Shown: positions 2,627-63,048, counted from the stretch's first letter. The stretch is 64,000 nt of DNA from Rickettsiales bacterium (GCA_035765535.1 DASTXE010000002.1:62001-126000); one strand, 5' to 3'. The notes: generated by a model not told the origin, from the letters alone. Made by a program: numbers and translations.

Positions 2627-4567
2627 CTATCTGCCGAAGAAAATATTCTGCGGATAGTAGAACTGAAGCGGTGATGTGCCGGAACCGGCTGCAGCTGTGC
2701 CGATTGTTTTTATCAGCGCTCCTGTAGCGGGCGTGATATTATAAATATAGCTCGAGGTTGAATATTCATCCGCTCCCCAGAGGGTATTGCTGCGGTCGAA
2801 ACCGAGCCCGTCCACGCCGCGGCCGCCGGTGCAGCTGAATACCGAGCCCGGTAAAGTGCCGCTGTAGGAACCCGAAGAATTGAATTTATAGACTTTGCAG
2901 TTGCCCTCGTCGGAAGCCCAGATGACGCCGCTACGGTCAACGGTAATATAATCGGAATAATCAAGGCCGCTTACATTGCTGAAACTAATGCCACTGACGA
3001 ATGCGCAGGAGCTGACCGATGTGCAGCGTTTGATCTGCGTGTCGTTAGGGGAGATAATCCATATGTTGCCGGAGTTATCGATTGCCACCCCGGAAGGAGA
3101 ATTGGTCAGCGAAATCTTATTCATATAGGCACCGGTGCTGCCGTTGAATTCTTCCACGCGATTATTGCCATAATCCGTCGCCCAGACATTGTTGCTGCTG
3201 TCAATGGCAAGCTGCTGTACGTTCGTGCCTACGGTAAACTGCCCGTTGCCGGTTCCGGTGCTGCCGGTCGTTAATAAGACATTCCCGTTATAGTCATATT
3301 TGATGAGGCGGTTATTGCCGCTATCGCCGACCCACACATTGCCATTGCCGTCAACCGCTACGGCATTGGGCTGATTAAGGCCGGTAGCGAAGGTAGAAAC
3401 ATACGCACCGGAGGAGGATAATTTCAATATGCGGTTATTGCCGCAATCGGCTACCCAGAGAAAATCGTCGATCACTACCTGCGACAGGTCCGGCGGAGAA
3501 AAATAGATGCACTGGCTTACGCCATTGCGAGTTATACTGCCGCCATTGAGGCTGATGGAGCTGGACAGGGAAATGCCACTCGGAGCCCAATCAGCCGAGG
3601 GCACAGTGTAGGTGAAGATGAGTGCGTTACTGCCGCTGCCGCTAACGTAATTGGCATAGGCCGTGTTACTGGTACCTATAGAGCCTGTTCCTAGCGCACT
3701 AAGCACGAGGCGGGGCGTGCCGGTGACCGTCACAGGGGAGGAGAAGGCAAGCGTAAAGGTGAGCACGGCTCCTGTGCTATAAGTATTATTGGAAGGCGGT
3801 GTGATGGAAGCGGTTTCCATCATGGGAATCTGCCTTAAATCCCATTGCTGCGTTTTATACACCACCAGATCGTCGAATGTGGATGTCGCCGGCTTAATGA
3901 CAAAAGAGGCAAAAGCCGTGTTATTGGTAAGTCCGCCGCCATGGGCTACCTGTGCGTTGTCTGCCTGAGAAGTATCGGTAGAGCCGGAATTCAGACGCGT
4001 CGTGCCGCTACCGGTGCCGGGAAGGGGAAGCCATGCACCGTAACCATCTGCACCATGGCTGATAAGAGCAAGGACAGCATTACGGCTATGGCCGTTATCA
4101 TTGACCGTGATGGAACCTTGTTGTGTGGTAGAAGTCCAGCATGCTGTTGCGCCCGTATCCACAGTGTAAGTAATATCTCTGCCGTAACTATCCAATGCGT
4201 AGCTGCTGGCAAGGCCGAGCGTTCTGACAGGAACCATGCCGATAGCGACATGATTGGGCGAAGAGGTAACAGCATAAATGCTGCCGCCGGAGCAATTGCT
4301 GCTCGCGCCGGAATTGGCGGAAGCCATTCCGTATGCCGTATTGCCGACAGCAAGGTTAGGGTCGGCGGGGCAGGGAACATAACCATGAGATGCTTCGTAT
4401 TGTCTCACTGCGGAGAGTATGGCTTCCATTTTCTGTGTTCCCATTTCATTGGAGCGTAATGCGCTACGGGTACTGGGAAGCGTCGCAACGACCACTAAGG
4501 AAGCAACTGTCAGCAGGATGCTGATTTGCAGTAAGGTGAAACCAGAGGAATGTTTGTAATCCATCAT
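2627..4567 (-). CDS. Prepilin-like protein fused to an Ig-like domain and NHL beta-propeller (copy 1)
   Basis: A 646-aa protein with three parts. Residues 7-30 form a type IV prepilin N-terminus: short basic leader, SSG/F cleavage site, then a hydrophobic helix. The pilin +5 glutamate is Gln (FTLLQ). Residues about 50-230 form a pseudopilin-like head with PCPADP, VDTGATACW and SHGADGYGAW. Residues about 253-345 resemble a bacterial Ig-like/SwmB-type strand domain, and about 365-646 contain NHL repeats (NVWVGDSGNNRL, NVWATDYGNNRV, NIWIISPND). NHL propellers usually bind ligands or proteins. I infer an envelope-anchored or pilus-associated adhesin or sensor. It lies just downstream of its paralogue and ends 1 bp from the fabG stop. 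Homology of the parts is clear; the role is not known. Confidence 0.8.
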   Translation of the reverse strand: MMDYKHSSGFTLLQISILLTVASLVVVATLPSTRSALRSNEMGTQKMEAILSAVRQYEASHGYVPCPADPNLAVGNTAYGMASANSGASSNCSGGSIYAVTSSPNHVAIGMVPVRTLGLASSYALDSYGRDITYTVDTGATACWTSTTQQGSITVNDNGHSRNAVLALISHGADGYGAWLPLPGTGSGTTRLNSGSTDTSQADNAQVAHGGGLTNNTAFASFVIKPATSTFDDLVVYKTQQWDLRQIPMMETASITPPSNNTYSTGAVLTFTLAFSSPVTVTGTPRLVLSALGTGSIGTSNTAYANYVSGSGSNALIFTYTVPSADWAPSGISLSSSISLNGGSITRNGVSQCIYFSPPDLSQVVIDDFLWVADCGNNRILKLSSSGAYVSTFATGLNQPNAVAVDGNGNVWVGDSGNNRLIKYDYNGNVLLTTGSTGTGNGQFTVGTNVQQLAIDSSNNVWATDYGNNRVEEFNGSTGAYMNKISLTNSPSGVAIDNSGNIWIISPNDTQIKRCTSVSSCAFVSGISFSNVSGLDYSDYITVDRSGVIWASDEGNCKVYKFNSSGSYSGTLPGSVFSCTGGRGVDGLGFDRSNTLWGADEYSTSSYIYNITPATGALIKTIGTAAAGSGTSPLQFYYPQNIFFGR

Positions 4568-4676
4568 CGTCCTATAATAGCATACATAGAGAGAAAATAC
4601 ACTCTAAGATATTATTTTCTCATGAAAATAAGCCCTTGGACGGCTTGAGGTTATTGTTTATACCGCTTTAATACGG

Positions 4677-6758
4677 CTAACGGCTTATATAAATCTGATA
4701 GGGATTACTCAGATTGATCGGTGTGCTGCCGGTCGTGCCCGTCGAGCCATGCCCCACTTTTTGCAAAATGGTGCCATCTTGCTTGAGCTGATAAACATAA
4801 TTGTTATTATCGTTAGCAACCCATATATAGCCGTTGCTGTCTATGGCAATGCCAGCTGGGCCTACGCCGCTTCCCGGGGAGCAGTCTGCAAGTGAAAATG
4901 TAAAGGGTATGCTCCAGCTATCTGTAGTGGGATTGTATTTTTGCACCTGGCAATTGCTTTCGTCCGTTACCCAGATATTACCACCAGAATCAATGGCGAT
5001 TTCGTCCGTATCACCGTTACCGGTAGTATAGAATGTTCCTGCCGTCCCCCCAGTGCTGCATGAACTATGCGAGACGCAGCCGCTGCCATTCGCATTGCAG
5101 CGCGCCAATCGGCAGACGCTATTGCCTGGCTGCATAATCCACAGATAACCGCTGGAATCAAGTGCGGCGCCGGAAGTATAACCGGAAATGGAAGTGGTCG
5201 TAGTGCCCATGTAGTTACCGCTGGTATCAAACTTGGCAAGACGCGTGTTGGTGCCACCGACATCCATTACCCATAAATAACCGCTCGTATCAAAAAACAT
5301 CTGGGAGTTAGTGGTCATGTCAAACTGGGTAGTAAGTGCATTGCCGGCGTGACAGGTGCATGATGTGGCATTAAACGCGCAACATGCGGTACCGCTGACA
5401 TAGCCACAACTTGTTGAGGTAGTATAATAGCCCGCGCATGTATCTGTTGTATTGCCGCCGATGGTCCGCTTCCAGGTTCCAGTGGTGTCGAACTCCGAGA
5501 CACGGTCATTTCCGGTGTCGGCGACCCAGTAATTTCCTGCGCTGTCGATAGCCACACCGGCCGGGCTTTTTAAACGTGTAACACGTGTGCCGCTCGTATT
5601 GGTAGTACCCAGCTGACGGATAAAATTACCGTTGCTGTCGATCACGGTAATATAATGTCCGCCAAAATTGGCAATGGCGATAGTGGACGCAATAACAACC
5701 TGCGACAGATCCGGCGGATTGAAAGTGATGCAGGGAGAAGTGGTTCCTACCACTGAGGAGCCAAGCGAGATACCGTTAGGGGCGGTGTCGCTTGCCAGGA
5801 TGGTGTACTTAAACACGAGAGAAGTAGAAGTGCTGGAGCCGCTGACATAAGTGGCATGCGCCGAAAGATTGCCGCCGGAAAGCGCCGTGAGCTGCAGGTA
5901 AGGGGTGCCGGTGACGGTGACGGCATAGGGCGTGGTTAAGGTAAAGGTCCAGGTTTGACCGCTGGTATAAGAGCCGTTGGAAGGCGGCGAAATGCTGATA
6001 TTCGTAATCGTATTGGGAAGTGAGTTCAGATTGAAAAGCGGCGTTTGATAGATCACCTGATCGTCGAAGCTGGTGGATGGAGTGCCGTTGACAAAAGAAG
6101 CGGCTGCGCCGTTATTGCTAAGCCCTCCGCCGCGTGCCACCTGGGCATTATCGGCCTGTGAGTTATTGGTCGAGCCCGTGTTCAGGCGAGTAGCGCCGCT
6201 ACCGGTGCCGGGAAGGGGAAGCCATGCGCCGAAACCATCCGCACCGTGGCTGACAAGTGCAATGACGGAATTGAAATTAACGTTATTGTCACTGATTTTA
6301 ACGGAACCCTGCATGGTGGGGGAAGTCCAGCATGCGGTTGCGCCGGTATCAACGGCATAGGTAATATTCCGGTTGAAGCCATCCACGGCATAATCCGAAG
6401 AGAGGCCAAGCGTTCTGACGGGAACGGTGCCGACGGCAATATGATTGGGAGAGGAGGTGGGGGCATAAATAAGACCGCCGGAGCAGTTACTGGTAGCACC
6501 GGAATTTGCGGATGCCACACCATAGCTGCTGTTTCCTGTGGCCAGATTAGGATCGGCTGGGCAGGGAATGAATCCATGAGCGGCCTGATATTGGCGGGTT
6601 GCCTTCAGCACGGAGTTCATTTTCTCAGCGCTGATTTTCCCGGCGTCAAGCTTCGCGCGCGAACTCGGGAGCGTGGCAACCACTGCCAAAGACGCCATCG
6701 TCAGAAGCAGGCTGATCTGTATGAGGGTAAATCCTGAAGACGCTTTTTTCGGTGCCAT
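4677..6758 (-). CDS. Prepilin-like protein fused to an Ig-like domain and NHL beta-propeller (copy 2)
   Basis: A 693-aa paralogue of the downstream gene with the same plan. It has a prepilin leader and SSG/F cleavage site (FTLIQ, again Gln instead of Glu at +5), a pseudopilin head with PCPADP and SHGADGFGAW, an Ig-like segment (about 255-340) and NHL repeats (GNYWVADTGNDRV, GYLWVMDVGG, NIWVTDESNCQV, GYIWVANDNN). It differs by a cysteine-rich insertion near residues 440-472 (six Cys) between propeller blades, absent from copy 1. The N-terminal 230 residues are much more alike between the copies than the propellers. It follows purC-purS on the same strand and is 109 bp upstream of copy 1, so a two-gene unit is likely. 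Function is unknown. Confidence 0.8.
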   Translation of the reverse strand: MAPKKASSGFTLIQISLLLTMASLAVVATLPSSRAKLDAGKISAEKMNSVLKATRQYQAAHGFIPCPADPNLATGNSSYGVASANSGATSNCSGGLIYAPTSSPNHIAVGTVPVRTLGLSSDYAVDGFNRNITYAVDTGATACWTSPTMQGSVKISDNNVNFNSVIALVSHGADGFGAWLPLPGTGSGATRLNTGSTNNSQADNAQVARGGGLSNNGAAASFVNGTPSTSFDDQVIYQTPLFNLNSLPNTITNISISPPSNGSYTSGQTWTFTLTTPYAVTVTGTPYLQLTALSGGNLSAHATYVSGSSTSTSLVFKYTILASDTAPNGISLGSSVVGTTSPCITFNPPDLSQVVIASTIAIANFGGHYITVIDSNGNFIRQLGTTNTSGTRVTRLKSPAGVAIDSAGNYWVADTGNDRVSEFDTTGTWKRTIGGNTTDTCAGYYTTSTSCGYVSGTACCAFNATSCTCHAGNALTTQFDMTTNSQMFFDTSGYLWVMDVGGTNTRLAKFDTSGNYMGTTTTSISGYTSGAALDSSGYLWIMQPGNSVCRLARCNANGSGCVSHSSCSTGGTAGTFYTTGNGDTDEIAIDSGGNIWVTDESNCQVQKYNPTTDSWSIPFTFSLADCSPGSGVGPAGIAIDSNGYIWVANDNNNYVYQLKQDGTILQKVGHGSTGTTGSTPINLSNPYQIYISR

Positions 6759-6785: not shown

Positions 6786-7025
6786 TTACTCCAACTCAAA
6801 GTTGTAGTTCTCGATCACGGTATTAGCGAGCAGTTTCCGGCACATAGAGTCAACTTCATCATGCGCCTTCTGTTTGTCGGCGCCGTTCAGTTCGATTTCG
6901 ATATACTTGCCTTGGCGGACATCGCCGATGCCCTGAAAGCCCAGATGGCCGAGCGCGCCGGAGATGGCTTTGCCCTGGGGATCGAGCACGCCGTTTTTCA
7001 AAGTGATATGGATCTTCGCCTTCAT
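6786..7025 (-). CDS. purS: Phosphoribosylformylglycinamidine synthase subunit PurS
   Basis: A 79-aa protein of the size and pattern of PurS: KIHITLKNGVLDPQGKAI at the start, then GFQGIGDVRQGKYIEIEL. PurS is the small dimeric subunit that links glutaminase PurQ to synthetase PurL in the fourth step of de novo purine synthesis. It lies 32 bp downstream of purC on the same strand, as in many alphaproteobacteria (purC-purS-purQ-purL). Here purQ and purL do not follow; the prepilin-NHL genes do. No strong ribosome site is visible, so translation may be coupled to purC. Confidence 0.93.
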   Translation of the reverse strand: MKAKIHITLKNGVLDPQGKAISGALGHLGFQGIGDVRQGKYIEIELNGADKQKAHDEVDSMCRKLLANTVIENYNFELE

Positions 7026-7057: not shown

Positions 7058-7873
7058 CTACTTGCCTTTCTTTTTCGTCTTAGGTTTAGCTTTAGCTTTA
7101 GCTTTGGTTTTAACTTTGGCCTTTGCCGCCACTACCAGCTCTTCGGTTTCACCGGGAAGCACGCCAAGCCTTCTGGCAACTTCGCGGTAAGCTTCTTCTA
7201 CCTTGCCCATGTCGCGACGGAAACGGTCCTTGTCCATTTTCTCACCGGTCTTCAAATCCCACAGGCGGCAGCAGTCTGGGCTGATCTCATCCGCAAGGAC
7301 GATCTGCACCGTATTGCCTTCGTAAAGACGGCCGAATTCGATTTTGAAATCCACGAGCTTGATGCCAACGCCAAGGAACAGGCCGCTCATGAAGTCGTTA
7401 ATGCGCAGTGCCATGGAAGTGATGTCTTCCAGTTCATTGGGTTGTGCCCACTGGAACGCAATGATGATTTCTGGTGCGACGATAGGATCGCCCAGTTTGT
7501 CGCTCTTGAGGCAGAATTCGATGATTGGGTAAGGGAGCTGCGTGCCTTCTTCAACCCCAAAACGCGTAGCGAAGCTGCCGGCGGCAACGTTGCGTACGAT
7601 CACTTCAAGCGGTACGATCTCAACCGCTTTTACCAGCTGTTCACGCATGTTGAGCATGCGGATGAAATGAGTCGGAATGCCGATTTCGCCGAGTTTAAGC
7701 ATGATATACTCGGAAATGCGGTTGTTGAGCACGCCCTTGCCGTTAATCACGCCTTTTTTTGCATTATTGAAAGCGGTGGCGTCGTCTTTAAAGTGCTGGA
7801 TGAGTGTGCCGGGTTCGGGACCTTCAAAGAGTTGCTTGGCTTTGCCTTCGTAAATTGGTGTTCTGCGGTTCAT
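7058..7873 (-). CDS. purC: Phosphoribosylaminoimidazole-succinocarboxamide synthase PurC
   Basis: About 271 aa from the ATG at 7873 ([13 protein letters not shown], the usual PurC beginning); ATGs at 7903 and 7918 would add 10-15 residues. PurC ligates aspartate to CAIR with ATP to give SAICAR. Family motifs are [42 protein letters not shown] and [14 protein letters not shown]. The C-terminus (about the last 20 residues) is an odd Lys/Ala/Thr-rich tail, encoded by near-perfect TTTAGC hexamer repeats on the + strand at about 7085-7105. It is first in a purC-purS unit and divergent from the zeta-inhibitor gene. Confidence 0.93.
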
Positions 7874-7950
7874 TGTTCTGCTTGCGGTTCGTTCGGATGA
7901 CATGTAAAAGTCTTTCATAATACTGGCAATGAAAATAAGAAAGGGAAAAT

Positions 7951-57674: not shown

Positions 57675-59087
57675 TTACATCGCTTCGAGCAGTTTCTTAT
57701 CCAGCCCGTAATAAGCAGCCTTGGTGACAAAATTGGGACGAAGTCCCGTCGATTTGAATTCGCCGACCAACCTGCCGTTTTCATCTTCGCCCTGGAATTC
57801 AAAAGTGAACAGGTCCTGTGTGATAATCACATCGCCTTCCATGCCGACCAGCTCCGTCACATGGGTAATGCGTCGTACACCGTCGCGCATACGGCTGATC
57901 TGAACGATCAGGTTCACGGCGTTGCTGATCTGCGTGCGTACGGCTTTGCTCGGCAGGTTGATGCCCGCAAGGCCGATCATGTTTTCAAGGCGGGTCAGGG
58001 CCTCGCGCGGATTGTTGGCGTGCAACGTACCCATGGAGCCGTCATGGCCCGTGTTCATGGCTTGCAAAAGATCGATAGATTCCGCGCCGCGCACTTCGCC
58101 CAGGATAATGCGGTCAGGACGCATACGCAGCGCGTTCTTCACAAGATCGCGCATGGTGATTTCACCGTGCCCTTCAAGATTGGCCGGACGCGTTTCCAGC
58201 GGCACGACGTGCGGCTGCTGCAATTGTAATTCTGCGGCGTCTTCGATGGTGACGACACGTTCGCCATGATCGATCATCTGGGAGATGGCATTGAGCAGCG
58301 TGGTCTTGCCGGAGCCCGTACCGCCGGAGATAATGATATTAAGACGGCATGCACCCGCGATCTTCAGCACCTGGCAGACATTGGGCGAGATATTTCCCTG
58401 CGATGCCATGATGTCGAGCGTAATTTTCTTCTGCGAAAATTTACGGATGGAGATACTGCATCCTTTAATGGAAAGCGGCGGCGCAATCACGTTGACGCGG
58501 CTGCCGTCCAGCAGGCGGGCGTCGCAGATGGGGCTTGATTCGTCCACGCGGCGGCCTACGGCGGTCACGATACGTTGCGCGATGGAAAGCACATGCGGCT
58601 CGTCGCGGAATTTCACATCCGTTAATATGAGCTTGCCTTTTCGTTCCACGTAAACCTGATTGGCGCCGTTCACCATGATATCGGTCACGGCTTCATCGCG
58701 CAGCAATGGCTCCAGCGGCCCAAGGCCGAGCATGTCGTCCACAATCTGGTTGGCAAGAAATTGCTGTTCAAGCTGATTGATGAGCAGCTTCTGCTCCATC
58801 ACGATTTCGCCGATCAGGTCGATAATCTGACGCTTCAAATCCTCGCGCGGCAGGCGCGATGCCGTCGTAAGATCGATTTGCTCCATCAGCAGCGAATAGA
58901 TCTTTTCCTTGGTAGAAGAAATTTCAGGCGTAACGGGCGCTGCCGTAGGAGTAGGGGCCTTGATTTCAGGCGGAGTGAGCCGGTCGCCTGGCTCTGGGGG
59001 CTTGGCTTCTTGTGGTGTGGGAGCGGGAGCCGGAGAGGCAGGCGGTGGAGAAGGAGGAAGATCAGTACTGCGTCGGCCGAACGCCAT
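57675..59087 (-). CDS. cpaF: Tad secretion ATPase CpaF/TadA
   Basis: A 470-aa hexameric secretion ATPase that powers Flp pilus assembly. An N-terminal Pro-rich region (about 1-60) precedes the N-domain. Walker A is GGTGSGKTTLLNAI, and the Walker B region is RPDRIILGEVRGAE followed by GHDGSMGTLHANNP with the conserved His. The C-terminal domain is complete. It begins 1 bp after the cpaE stop. Usually tadB and tadC follow; here they do not. Confidence 0.95.
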   Translation of the reverse strand: MAFGRRSTDLPPSPPPASPAPAPTPQEAKPPEPGDRLTPPEIKAPTPTAAPVTPEISSTKEKIYSLLMEQIDLTTASRLPREDLKRQIIDLIGEIVMEQKLLINQLEQQFLANQIVDDMLGLGPLEPLLRDEAVTDIMVNGANQVYVERKGKLILTDVKFRDEPHVLSIAQRIVTAVGRRVDESSPICDARLLDGSRVNVIAPPLSIKGCSISIRKFSQKKITLDIMASQGNISPNVCQVLKIAGACRLNIIISGGTGSGKTTLLNAISQMIDHGERVVTIEDAAELQLQQPHVVPLETRPANLEGHGEITMRDLVKNALRMRPDRIILGEVRGAESIDLLQAMNTGHDGSMGTLHANNPREALTRLENMIGLAGINLPSKAVRTQISNAVNLIVQISRMRDGVRRITHVTELVGMEGDVIITQDLFTFEFQGEDENGRLVGEFKSTGLRPNFVTKAAYYGLDKKLLEAM

Positions 59088-60317
59088 TTACTTATCCTTC
59101 TTGAATAATGTGAACAAGCCGCTTTGCTTGCCCGGCAATTTTTCTCCCGGTTCCGCATGGGAGAAATGCATTGCCAGTGAATGCAGTATTTTCGTAGCGG
59201 GAAGATTCTGCGCGGTTTCCGCCAGCACTTCGCCTGCGGTCGCGGCGGCATGTGCATCCAGTACGAAAGGAATATTGAAAGCTACCTTGGCGCCGAGACC
59301 TTTTTCAAACTCGCTTTGCGGCATCTGGTGCTTGCCTGCAAGACCGATTTTGTTGGCAACGAATACCGGCGGTTTGATTTTTAGAACATTGCGGAAATAT
59401 TCGAGATAGCGCAGTGACTCCCGAAGCCCTGCCATACTGTATTCGGTGACGCATACGACATGGTCGGCCTGTGTAATGGCGCGGCGTGTAAATGGATTGA
59501 GAACGCGTGGCAGGTCGATCACGATATGCGAGAATTTCGTGCGGCATTGTTTAAATAAACCTTCTGCGGCAGGTTCGCTCGTTACGATATTTTCTTCCAG
59601 CGGTTCTTCCGCGCTCATGAAGGAAAGATAATCGTCGACACGCACCATCACGCGATCCACGAAAAGACTGTCGATACGGTCGGGCTTTTCAAGCGCATCG
59701 CGTAAGCCACGGCCCGGTTCAAGATCGAGCGAGAGTGCTACGGTGCCGAACTGGGGGTCGAAATCCAGCAACGTGGTTTTATGATGCAGACGATTGGCGA
59801 GTATCCATGCCATATTCACGGCAACTGTCGTTGCGCCGACACCGCCGCGCGTACCGATAACAGTAATGATGTTGGATGCTTTCTTCGCTTCTTCGGGTTT
59901 GGCAGAATGGACGGGAGCGACATCTAATGCCTTCTGGTACGCTGCATTCAGCGCTGCAAGTGTGAAAGGTTTCAGCAGGTAGTTTGAAACGCCGATCTCT
60001 ACGAGCCAGCAATAGAAAGAATATTCGTTCACCTTACCGGAAACGATGACCTTGATATTAGGATCGCATACATCCGCCAGCGCGTCGAGCGATGGGGAGA
60101 CCGTCTCTGTGGTAGAACCGATATCTACGAACAGAACTTTCGGAGAAGGGGAAGATTTAAGGAATGTCGTAGCCGTATCAATATCGCCGGTATGCACAAC
60201 GCTTTCCGGCCAGCCATTCGTGGTCGCGAATTGCTTCAGCAAAGCGAGGCTCTCCTGGTCGTTACTGAACGCCATGAATGGAGTCTGCGAGCCGTTGGAG
60301 CTAGAAGCGGTACTCAT
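59088..60317 (-). CDS. cpaE: Pilus localisation ATPase CpaE/TadZ
   Basis: A 409-aa protein with a receiver-like N-terminal domain (about 1-125, no obvious phospho-acceptor set checked) and a MinD/ParA-like ATPase domain. The deviant Walker A is RGGVGATTVAVNMAW (Ala in place of the catalytic Lys, as in TadZ proteins). LLDFDPQFGTVALSLDLEPGR is split here as LLDFDPQFG and LDLEPG. TadZ marks the pole or site of pilus assembly. It has its own 142-bp upstream spacer after cpaD, so it may have its own promoter. Confidence 0.92.
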   Translation of the reverse strand: MSTASSSNGSQTPFMAFSNDQESLALLKQFATTNGWPESVVHTGDIDTATTFLKSSPSPKVLFVDIGSTTETVSPSLDALADVCDPNIKVIVSGKVNEYSFYCWLVEIGVSNYLLKPFTLAALNAAYQKALDVAPVHSAKPEEAKKASNIITVIGTRGGVGATTVAVNMAWILANRLHHKTTLLDFDPQFGTVALSLDLEPGRGLRDALEKPDRIDSLFVDRVMVRVDDYLSFMSAEEPLEENIVTSEPAAEGLFKQCRTKFSHIVIDLPRVLNPFTRRAITQADHVVCVTEYSMAGLRESLRYLEYFRNVLKIKPPVFVANKIGLAGKHQMPQSEFEKGLGAKVAFNIPFVLDAHAAATAGEVLAETAQNLPATKILHSLAMHFSHAEPGEKLPGKQSGLFTLFKKDK

Positions 60318-60459
60318 AACGCAAACCTCTTTTCCACAATCCTTTAGTCGGTTTCATTTCCATAGAAATTATCATAAAACCGTTACTATTTTATTAATGT
60401 TTATAACATCGCAGGACGCGGCGGCATAATAAGCAAAGCAATAGCCTGTCGGCCTGGGG

Positions 60460-60792
60460 TTACCGGCCCGACATGGAAGAAGTCACGTCCATCACCGGCA
60501 GCGCTTCCTGCGTTGCTTTCATATACCTGTCCAGCACGGCGCTTTCGCGGTCGCCCGAGCCCGTCATATCGCCATGGCCCATATGCAGATCGTCCGGATT
60601 GGCCACCTGCACGCTCAGATTATTGTAATAGGCGCAGCCGAATCCGCTGAACTCCGTATTCTGGTAATCATGGCTCGCATTGCTGCTCCAGTTGGGGCAG
60701 GCGTTAGACATTTTCTGTTCCGGCGCAGAGTCGCATCCGGTTGCCAGGATCGTCCATGCCGCAAGGACCAGTACAGATGATATGCGTTGCAT
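60460..60792 (-). CDS. Short CpaD-like pilus lipoprotein
   Basis: A 110-aa lipoprotein (lipobox LATGC) holding the conserved end of CpaD: FGCAYYNNLSVQVANPDDL, where CpaD has FGCA...NLA.QVANP.DL. Full CpaD is about twice as long, so the N-terminal half of the family is missing. It lies between cpaC and cpaE, exactly where cpaD belongs, which is the main support. Start, signal and stop look intact, so this appears to be a compact version rather than a broken gene. Confidence 0.75.
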   Translation of the reverse strand: MQRISSVLVLAAWTILATGCDSAPEQKMSNACPNWSSNASHDYQNTEFSGFGCAYYNNLSVQVANPDDLHMGHGDMTGSGDRESAVLDRYMKATQEALPVMDVTSSMSGR

Positions 60793-60802
60793 AAATCCTC
60801 CC

Positions 60803-62212
60803 TTACTTCAATTGATAGCCAGCCGCGCCATGCAGGTGCGGAGCGTCTGCGTCGTGCGAGTATCCCGGCGGCATTTCCTTATAGAGCTTGCCCAGTAATA
60901 TGCGTTCGAAGTCGCTGGAGAGCACAAGCCCTTCCGTCGGGTCGTGCAATGCCTTGGGATTATTCACCGCATCGACGATATAAGGTGTTACAATAATAAC
61001 CAGTTCGGTCTGGTTGTTATGGAACTCACTGGAGCGGAACAACGTGCCGAGAATCGGCATGTCGCCCAGGAACGGGAACTTCGTAATATCGTTATTGCGG
61101 TCATTCTCGATTAACCCGGCGATAGCGAAGCTCTGGCCGCTGCCCAGTTCCACCGTTGTAGAGGCTTTACGTGTCTGCAGGGCAGGGATATTGAATCCGG
61201 CCGTGCTGACGGCGCCGGTCTGCGTCAGCGAGCTGACTTCCGGCGAAACGGTCAGGTTGATCCGGCTTTTGGACAACACCGACGGAACGAAACTCAGGCT
61301 CACGCCGTAAGGCTGGTAATTGATGGAAACCTGCGCAGAGGAACCCGTGCCGGTAACGATGGGAATCGGAATCTCACCGCCTGCGAGGAAGCTTGCCTTC
61401 TGGCCCGACTGGGTGGTCAGCGTCGGTTCAGCCAGTGTCGTGACGAGGCCGTTATTTTCCAGTGCGTCAATCACGCCGTTGATGCTGTTATGCGAGTCGC
61501 TGAATCCACCAAATAAGGATCCGACCGTACCGTCACGTACGAACGTAGCGGGCGTCGTAGAGTTGTCGATAAAGTTACGGTTATTAAATACACCGAAGGA
61601 GAAATTACCGGCGAGAGAAAGATTCTGAAGGCTGATACCGAACTGTTTCAGCACGGTACGGCTTACTTCGGCCACTTTCACTTTCAGCATGACCTGGTTG
61701 GAACCGAGCGGTCGCAGCATGTTGACAAGTGTCTGACCCTGTTTGACAAAGGGAGTCGCAATCTTGCGCACATCTTCAGCCTGCAGGGGAGAATCGACAT
61801 CGCCTTTGACGACAAGCGCGCCACCGACAGACTGAACGCTGACCTGCGAATCGGGCAGCATTTCACGGATTTCCTTGCTCAGCCTGCTGAGATTATTCGT
61901 GACGTTGATCACGGCATGCAGAACTTCCGCGTCCTTGGAGTCCACGGCGAATACAGTCGTTTCACCGACTCCTTTACCGTTGACATAAATAAGGCTCGGA
62001 GAAATTACCTGTACGTCGGCAATCGTCGGATCGGCCGCGATGACGGAAGAAGCCGGTGAGGACAGGCGGATAAGCTTGCCCTTGCTGACCTCAATCGAAT
62101 AATCCTGCTCAGGGAGGGTTTCATCCTTGCCGGAGGCATAGGACTGCGCTGCGTAAAACGGCAGGCAGGTTATGCACATGACCAGCAGCAGCTTGCGGAT
62201 GGCGTTGCTCAT
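60803..62212 (-). CDS. cpaC: Tad outer-membrane secretin CpaC/RcpA
   Basis: A 469-aa secretin forming the outer-membrane pore for Flp pili. Signal peptide MSNAIRKLLLVMCITCLPFYA; pilus-assembly N domain (IEVSKGKLIRLSSPASSVIAAD in part); BON-like segment (VSVQSVGGALVVKGDV); secretin core from about residue 160 with FLAGGEIPIPIV and VTPYIVDA near the end. It overlaps cpaB by ATGA, and the start is well fixed. Confidence 0.94.
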   Translation of the reverse strand: MSNAIRKLLLVMCITCLPFYAAQSYASGKDETLPEQDYSIEVSKGKLIRLSSPASSVIAADPTIADVQVISPSLIYVNGKGVGETTVFAVDSKDAEVLHAVINVTNNLSRLSKEIREMLPDSQVSVQSVGGALVVKGDVDSPLQAEDVRKIATPFVKQGQTLVNMLRPLGSNQVMLKVKVAEVSRTVLKQFGISLQNLSLAGNFSFGVFNNRNFIDNSTTPATFVRDGTVGSLFGGFSDSHNSINGVIDALENNGLVTTLAEPTLTTQSGQKASFLAGGEIPIPIVTGTGSSAQVSINYQPYGVSLSFVPSVLSKSRINLTVSPEVSSLTQTGAVSTAGFNIPALQTRKASTTVELGSGQSFAIAGLIENDRNNDITKFPFLGDMPILGTLFRSSEFHNNQTELVIIVTPYIVDAVNNPKALHDPTEGLVLSSDFERILLGKLYKEMPPGYSHDADAPHLHGAAGYQLK

Positions 62213-63048
62213 TTGCTGTTCTCCTGAAAGTTCATTTGTTCGTTAGTACTGCCGTGATAGACGTTCACCTTGGTGGTGATGGAGCCTTTCTCGTCCAGAA
62301 GCCTGCTGACATCCAGATTGGTGGAATAATTACCTGGAGCGTCATGCGGCGCGTCCGGTGCACCGGCAGCTGTCGGAGCTTTCTGCGTGGCAAGACTGCG
62401 CAGGCTTACGGAAATCGTGCCGATGCTGATGGCGACATTGATCATCTCTGCCTGTTTCGGTGTGACTTCCAGCGTAAGGGTTTTCGGAATAACGGCTTTG
62501 TTGTCCGGGTTATTCAGCATCTGGTCAACCGCCAGCACGCGCAGATCCTTCAGGAAGGTTTCGCTCGCCAGTACGCCGTCAGGAATCTTATGTGTAAGGA
62601 TCAGGTCCACATGGTCGCCGGGGAATACAAACCCTGCATTAGCCGAGATGGAATTCACTGCGATGGAAACAGCGCGCATGCCGGGAGTGAGCACGGCAGA
62701 CATGAATCCGCCTTCATTGACGCGTACTACAGCAGTGGCGGTAATAGGTTCGCCCGCTGCAATATCATGACGCGCAACGGCGCCGTTGAAATCTTCAATG
62801 CGGTTAGCCTGCGGCGTGAGATAGGAGGGTGAAACACTGGCTTGTGGCCATTCTGCCCATTGCAGATCTTTATCGGCGCGGATGAAGCTGCCCGCGGCGA
62901 TCGTCTGTGCCGCCACAAGTATCTTCGGTCCGGAAACAGTTTGAGTGGGGGCATTACGGTTATTGACCATAATGACCATGACCGCCGCGATGGCAACCGC
63001 CATAACCAGCAGTAAAAGTGTGCGCCCGTTCATAGAACTACTCGCCAA
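62209..63048 (-). CDS. cpaB: Flp pilus assembly protein CpaB/RcpC
   Basis: A 279-aa periplasmic protein with one N-terminal membrane helix (TLLLLVMAVAIAAVMVIMV) and an SAF domain (ILVAAQTIAAGSFIRADKDL). The RcpC core follows: AGEPITATAVVRVNEGG, LTPGMRAVSIAVNSISANAGFV, FPGDHVDLILTH and TLEVTPKQAEMINVA. It is thought to link the secretin to the cell wall. It is first in the cpaBCD run, 188 bp downstream of the EAL-domain gene. Confidence 0.94.
   Translation of the reverse strand: MASSSMNGRTLLLLVMAVAIAAVMVIMVNNRNAPTQTVSGPKILVAAQTIAAGSFIRADKDLQWAEWPQASVSPSYLTPQANRIEDFNGAVARHDIAAGEPITATAVVRVNEGGFMSAVLTPGMRAVSIAVNSISANAGFVFPGDHVDLILTHKIPDGVLASETFLKDLRVLAVDQMLNNPDNKAVIPKTLTLEVTPKQAEMINVAISIGTISVSLRSLATQKAPTAAGAPDAPHDAPGNYSTNLDVSRLLDEKGSITTKVNVYHGSTNEQMNFQENSK

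Follow-up and report, generated by a model that had tools for sequence, protein, structure and literature searches.

Prepilin-NHL propeller proteins as likely modular minor pilins of a head family with apparently exchanged C-terminal modules

Pilins with a domain grafted on and shown at the tip of the pilus have been described before in two studies (PMC8179133, PMC9934059), and the first of them catalogues over 1,200 modular pilins in 264 architectures. Its main text does not mention NHL. Pilus tip complexes are capped by a subunit that lacks Glu5 (PMC10191384), and the reason given for this arrangement is that, without Glu5, a subunit is unable to neutralise the N-terminus of one stacked on it (PMC9934059). 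In Streptococcus sanguinis, the subunit without Glu5 is PilA, which is joined at the tip by the modular pilins PilB and PilC (PMC9934059). A stretch of 64,000 nucleotides (DASTXE010000002.1:62001-126000, called the window here) from a 2.6-Mb genome in six contigs carries two adjacent genes whose products join a prepilin-like leader and a pilin head to a C-terminal NHL propeller, with Gln instead of Glu at mature position 5. These proteins are likely modular minor pilins of a type IV pilus resembling the mannose-sensitive haemagglutinin (MSHA) pilus, in which the Gln5 class would sit at or next to the tip and the propeller would act as a ligand-binding head.

With S. sanguinis PilB, which carries a vWA domain, and PilC, which carries a lectin (PMC8179133, PMC9934059), the pair shares a pilin module joined to a bulky grafted binding module, a predicted tip complex, and a Glu5-less partner. 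PilA, however, is small and has no module, whereas the Glu5-less subunit here bears the propeller itself. Furthermore, a single homologous head family spans a bacterial order and carries many modules. In diderm bacteria, the usual tip propeller is PilY1. PilY1/PilC tip adhesins display a beta-propeller at the pilus tip, as is predicted here, but PilY1 is not a pilin. GspK, the tip pseudopilin with which the original prediction (made from the sequence alone) compared the pair, also lacks Glu5. The likeness ends there: GspK has an alpha-domain inserted in its pilin fold (PMC8179133), whereas the extra domains of the pair are C-terminal and all-beta.

The two genes are minus-strand open reading frames at 4677-6758 (protein 2, 693 residues) and 2627-4567 (protein 1, 646 residues), each delimited by its reading frame, Pfam, AlphaFold and fold matches. 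Protein 2 starts with the leader MAPKKASSG (6732-6758) followed by FTLIQ, and protein 1 with MMDYKHSSG (4541-4567) followed by FTLLQ; cleavage is expected after Gly9 in both. The Gln codons of mature position 5 lie at 6717-6719 and 4526-4528, respectively, and a hydrophobic helix follows the shared SSG-FTLxQIS junction. In other words, sequence and models give both proteins the class III leader pattern of a short hydrophilic segment ending in Gly and then a hydrophobic stretch. The pilin module consists of an alpha1 helix and a beta head. It occupies 6015-6731 in protein 2 (from sequence, AlphaFold and the head profile), with the motifs PCPADP and SHGADGFGAW, and 3827-4540 in protein 1 (from sequence and AlphaFold), with PCPADP and SHGADGYGAW. 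The Gln at +5 and both motifs had been pointed out in the original prediction and are indeed present in both proteins. Next come an immunoglobulin (Ig)-like beta-sandwich linker, placed by AlphaFold at 5724-6014 and 3527-3826, and the NHL propeller, at 4680-5696 in protein 2 (six blades by our count) and at 2630-3463 in protein 1.

The propeller that had been predicted is found by several methods. Pfam reports four and three NHL stretches in the pair (E 3.5e-18 and 3.5e-17). In the AlphaFold models of both proteins, a long N-terminal helix that runs as far as residue 61 is followed by a beta head, then by a beta-sandwich (about 253-319/339), and finally by a propeller (residues 359-692 and 369-645) closed by the C-terminal strand. 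Their mean predicted local distance difference test scores are 74 and 78, and their predicted template modelling scores of 0.55 and 0.52 make the relative placement of the domains unsure. Solved NHL and YWTD propellers match the models in Foldseek/VIA (best Z 28, root-mean-square deviation 2.1 over 250 residues); the propeller fills the match list, so that the VIA alignment covers mainly residues 273-693 and says nothing on the fold neighbours of the head. The proposed Ig-like domain appears as a beta-sandwich in both models, from which its assignment comes, and has no Pfam match. The heads of the pair share 66% identity, and a profile of the head finds solved type IV pilins in the PDB (best E 1.8e-5). 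The extra domain is a C-terminal propeller of a kind not specific to pili, as in modular pilins. The identity of the heads, the pilin profile match, and the recurrence of the head-plus-NHL arrangement four more times in the genome place the pair beyond chance.

The head occurs seven times in this genome, as six NHL fusions and one head-only gene. Three of the fusions have Gln5 (the window pair and a gene at C5:28.6k), and three have Glu5 (a tandem pair at C4:122-125k and a gene at C3:221k); the head-only gene at C3:76k also carries Glu5. All 13 NHL matches of the genome sit inside the six prepilin fusions, and within this genome the Ig-like linker occurs only in the three Gln5 members. With Glu5 in half of the six fusions, the lack of this residue is not a trait of the leader-NHL architecture, and Gln5 is ruled out as its hallmark.

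Nor is the pair an isolated oddity: it makes up a minor portion of a modular-pilin family that extends over the order. At E up to 1e-6, the head profile matches 88 of 131 genomes of the order, covering 64 of 86 genera. Among 289 genomes sampled from the whole class, 29 match at 1e-10, two of them from this order, and matches elsewhere are weaker. A profile search of genome contigs with a three-sequence alignment returned one named relative, an uncultured alphaproteobacterium.

Large subunits without Glu5 form a lineage of their own, most likely an old class placed at or next to the tip. When 106 heads are put into one tree, the eight large heads of this kind from families f1 and f23 cluster together (Shimodaira-Hasegawa-like approximate likelihood ratio 92). 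In a 62-head tree built without the first 40 residues, the large non-Glu5 heads form one clade (95/87), which indicates a single change of state among the rows kept, other non-Glu5 leaders (for example L135, L139 and L132) having been excluded as long or unstable rows. The members of this clade are NHL proteins in f1 and FG-GAP proteins in f23.

How would such proteins work? A PilD-type peptidase would cut the leader, the alpha1 helix would put the protein into the filament, and the conserved head would dock it. The Ig-like linker and the NHL propeller would then be displayed as a ligand-binding head, either an adhesin or a surface sensor. A position at or next to the tip is assigned to the Gln5 class, since it lacks the Glu5 needed to neutralise the N-terminus of any further subunit on top, and the Glu5 propeller pilins may lie below this class in the same tip complex. 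The complex of Gln5 and Glu5 propeller pilins would thus be carried on a retractable MSHA-like pilus. The original suggestion of pilin-type proteins with a predicted exposed propeller, whose missing Glu5 fits a position at or near the tip of a little-described surface system, is supported.

Further evidence comes from the genes for pilus machinery. In 16 genomes, this one included, head-family genes have a PilD-type peptidase gene no more than about 2 kb away (rough P about 1e-5, with locus number and size assumed and genomes taken as independent). Here the peptidase gene overlaps the NHL gene at C3:221k, and an NHL member in one genome of the same family overlaps a peptidase gene likewise. 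This genome has a second copy at C3:379k. A PilD-type N domain is present in 86 of 88 head-positive genomes compared to 11 of 43 head-negative ones, and the head is found in every one of the 64 genomes that carry at least two copies of the domain. A homologue of this genome's 666-residue secretin adjoins the peptidase in 11 of the 16 genomes, mostly together with two conserved proteins; the triad of secretin and these two proteins sits on a different contig, C6, in the genome of the window. The best NCBIfam match of the secretin is MshL, and the genome encodes a GspE/PilB-type assembly ATPase with a match to MshEN, a c-di-GMP domain related to MshE of the MSHA-type pilus. Different from an MSHA-type pilus are the secretin score, which stays below the MshL cut-off (224 bits versus 250), and the two conserved proteins that follow the secretin, whose copies in this genome have no Pfam or NCBIfam match. 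The genome also encodes a two-domain GspF protein and a PilT/PilU pair of retraction ATPases that scores above the family cut-off. As a separate observation, the two conserved proteins (~255 and ~250 residues) were seen 3' of the MshL-like secretin at L068:8147-9609 and at L159, L160, L161, L162, L164, L166, L168 and L169, and the first of them resembles an ABC-2-type permease by eye.

Several observations weigh against pilins at the tip. The window pair lies behind purC-purS and outside any pilus-gene operon. The match of the head profile to PDB pilins is carried mainly by the N-terminal helix. With Gln5 in three subunits of one genome, not all of them need be caps. Finally, PF07963 gives no above-threshold match to either window leader, and TIGR02532 does not match the 693-residue protein. 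The missing PF07963 match would suit ordinary secreted NHL proteins whose leader is prepilin-like by chance, but this is very improbable. Other copies of the head in the genome are 66% and 48% identical to the window head, heads ~30% identical to it that follow canonical GFTLIELS leaders can be aligned with it over the full length, and the FG-GAP members of the non-Glu5 clade retain the leader in another family. The prepilin-leader call is based on the motif together with homology to Glu5 paralogues, which have the same head and are matched by TIGR02532. In this respect the class III-like leader of the original prediction holds by motif and homology, but not by direct matches to these two leader models.

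The number of Gln5 copies, which is high for a cap, would be easier to understand if the proteins were membrane-anchored ligand sensors, at the surface or in the periplasm, whose prepilin helix serves only as an anchor and never enters a filament. The NHL domain of the Mycobacterium tuberculosis receptor kinase PknD, an extracytoplasmic propeller as is predicted here, appears among the Foldseek matches, but PknD has no pilin module. A role purely as sensors is distinctly improbable, given that the non-Glu5 class falls within a family of pilins encoded at loci with a prepilin peptidase and, in many cases, a secretin. Also unlikely, if somewhat easier to entertain, is that the proteins belong to a type II secretion-like pseudopilus, in which a periplasmic propeller would load or gate cargo through the MshL/GspD-like secretin. 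Paralogue heads are weakly similar to GspG (TIGR01710), and the ATPase scores slightly better as GspE than as PilB, all under the cut-offs. However, the PilT/PilU pair points to a retractable pilus, the secretin scores best as MshL, and binding-type modules (C-type lectin, LamG, RCC1 and FG-GAP) suit display better than the periplasm.

The modules of the family are diverse and comprise NHL, RCC1, FG-GAP and WD40-like propellers as well as LamG and C-type lectins. DNA was fetched around ~60 head-family genes, mostly chosen for long open frames, a sample that favours fusions. Among 65 C-terminal parts, Pfam matched RCC1 in 11 members, NHL and LamG in 8 each, FG-GAP in 6, WD40 and DUF2341 in 3 each, S74 in 2, and a C-type lectin in 1; the remainder were glycine-rich or had no assignment. 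The WD40-like label of several f23 members comes from reading the sequence and from weak matches.

It appears that these modules have been swapped between head-family genes, because the relationships of heads and modules, compared at the sequence level, disagree. Strong evidence comes from genome G116, in which a Glu5 and a Met5 protein share 37% identity in the head but 66%, over 498 residues, in the FG-GAP module. The same Met5 protein and its clade-mate in G110 show the reverse, with heads 57% and modules 42% identical. The other strong case is a replacement between this genome and G053 of the same genus, whose Glu5 heads are 42-58% identical while the NHL and DUF2341-LamG modules align no better than shuffled sequences. 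The C4 tandem pair of this genome has heads 62% and modules 29% identical, and the module of one C4 protein shares 43% identity with the modules of the window pair although the heads are 31-35% identical; repeat-rich modules align easily, and identities of ~30-40% are weak evidence. By reading, the genomes in which both the Glu5 and the non-Glu5 class were covered mostly seem to carry one module type in the two classes (G000, G110, G116 and G129, with G076 as an exception). One tentative possibility, to which we give slightly less than even chances, is that the tip functions as a socket. Orthologous Glu5 and non-Glu5 heads would be kept for long, while binding modules are replaced and also passed by copying from one paralogue to another in the same genome. 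As a result, the two classes of a species would tend to share a type of propeller or lectin. Such receptor swapping by recombination would take over the role of PilY1.

PilY1 (PF05567) was found in neither window protein (E up to 1), nor elsewhere in the whole genome, nor in the sampled genomes of f1, f5, f13 and f23. It is present in nine genomes, all from families f22, f24 and f27, and in none of the genomes whose propeller modules were read. The modules read in f22, f24 and f27 were not propellers, and a possible complementary distribution of PilY1 and propeller modules is suggestive only.

Other C-termini were noted in passing. At L122:9545-9979, a C-type lectin domain (PF00059, E 3.6e-20) is joined to a prepilin head. 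Pilin heads at L139 and L147 have C-termini that resemble Peptidase_S74 by eye, an endosialidase chaperone typical of phage tail fibres. The modules at L119 and L121 (genomes G035 and G012) measure 684 and 833 residues and look by eye like a formylglycine-generating-enzyme fold plus LamG; L121 has no Pfam match.

The open-licence papers searched contained none that joins an NHL repeat to a prepilin, and a search for pseudopilin with RCC1 gave one unrelated genome paper only. Nor did those papers yield a propeller-rich family that spans an order, swaps modules and has a non-Glu5 class of its own. What appears to be new is the order-wide family of one head and many modules, the old non-Glu5 modular class, the module exchange, and the linkage to peptidase and secretin. 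It is not settled how type IV pili come by new binding specificities, and most catalogues of modular pilins have treated each architecture separately. A single head family that occurs in many families of one order, with several unrelated propeller types and two lectin types, offers a natural experiment on the evolution of the tip. Module swapping suggests how bacteria could change what their pili stick to, and the large Glu5-less subunits allow the tip-cap hypothesis to be tested.

The order carrying the head family is probably Rickettsiales. This identification comes from family f12, whose listed genomes have exactly five TLC ATP/ADP transporter genes each, a number that we take to be a hallmark of Rickettsia. 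TLC genes show a negative association with the head family, being present in 10 of the 88 genomes that have the head and in 30 of the 43 that do not (uncorrected for shared ancestry). Should the order be Rickettsiales, the families taken as Rickettsiaceae and Anaplasmataceae are ones in which the system was not found, and the lineages that keep it include kinds described as free-living or extracellular. The family would then be relevant to how bacteria attached to eukaryotic cells before they lived inside them. Early-branching Rickettsiales have been reported to possess type IV pili and Tad (PMC9352585, PMC10847448).

Around the pair, a purS-like small gene (6786-7025, minus strand) lies 27 nt upstream of the 693-residue gene, after purC (7058-7918), and the far end of the pair adjoins a convergent dehydrogenase gene; these names were given by inspection. 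About 50 kb away on the minus strand, the window contains Tad pilus genes (57675-63048) with a T2SSE match at 57897-58727 and a secretin match at 60971-61465. Membership of the pair in a Tad/Flp system is ruled out by the protein sizes of 646 and 693 residues and by the absence of head-family genes at these tad genes. A second tad-type locus of the same genome lies at L069:6280-11355. The genome encodes 34 PF07963 prepilins in total. About 30 of them have a different head, are mostly 250-320 residues long with GFTLIELSIVLVIIGLIVGG-like leaders, and are scattered, forming a second, separate prepilin expansion.

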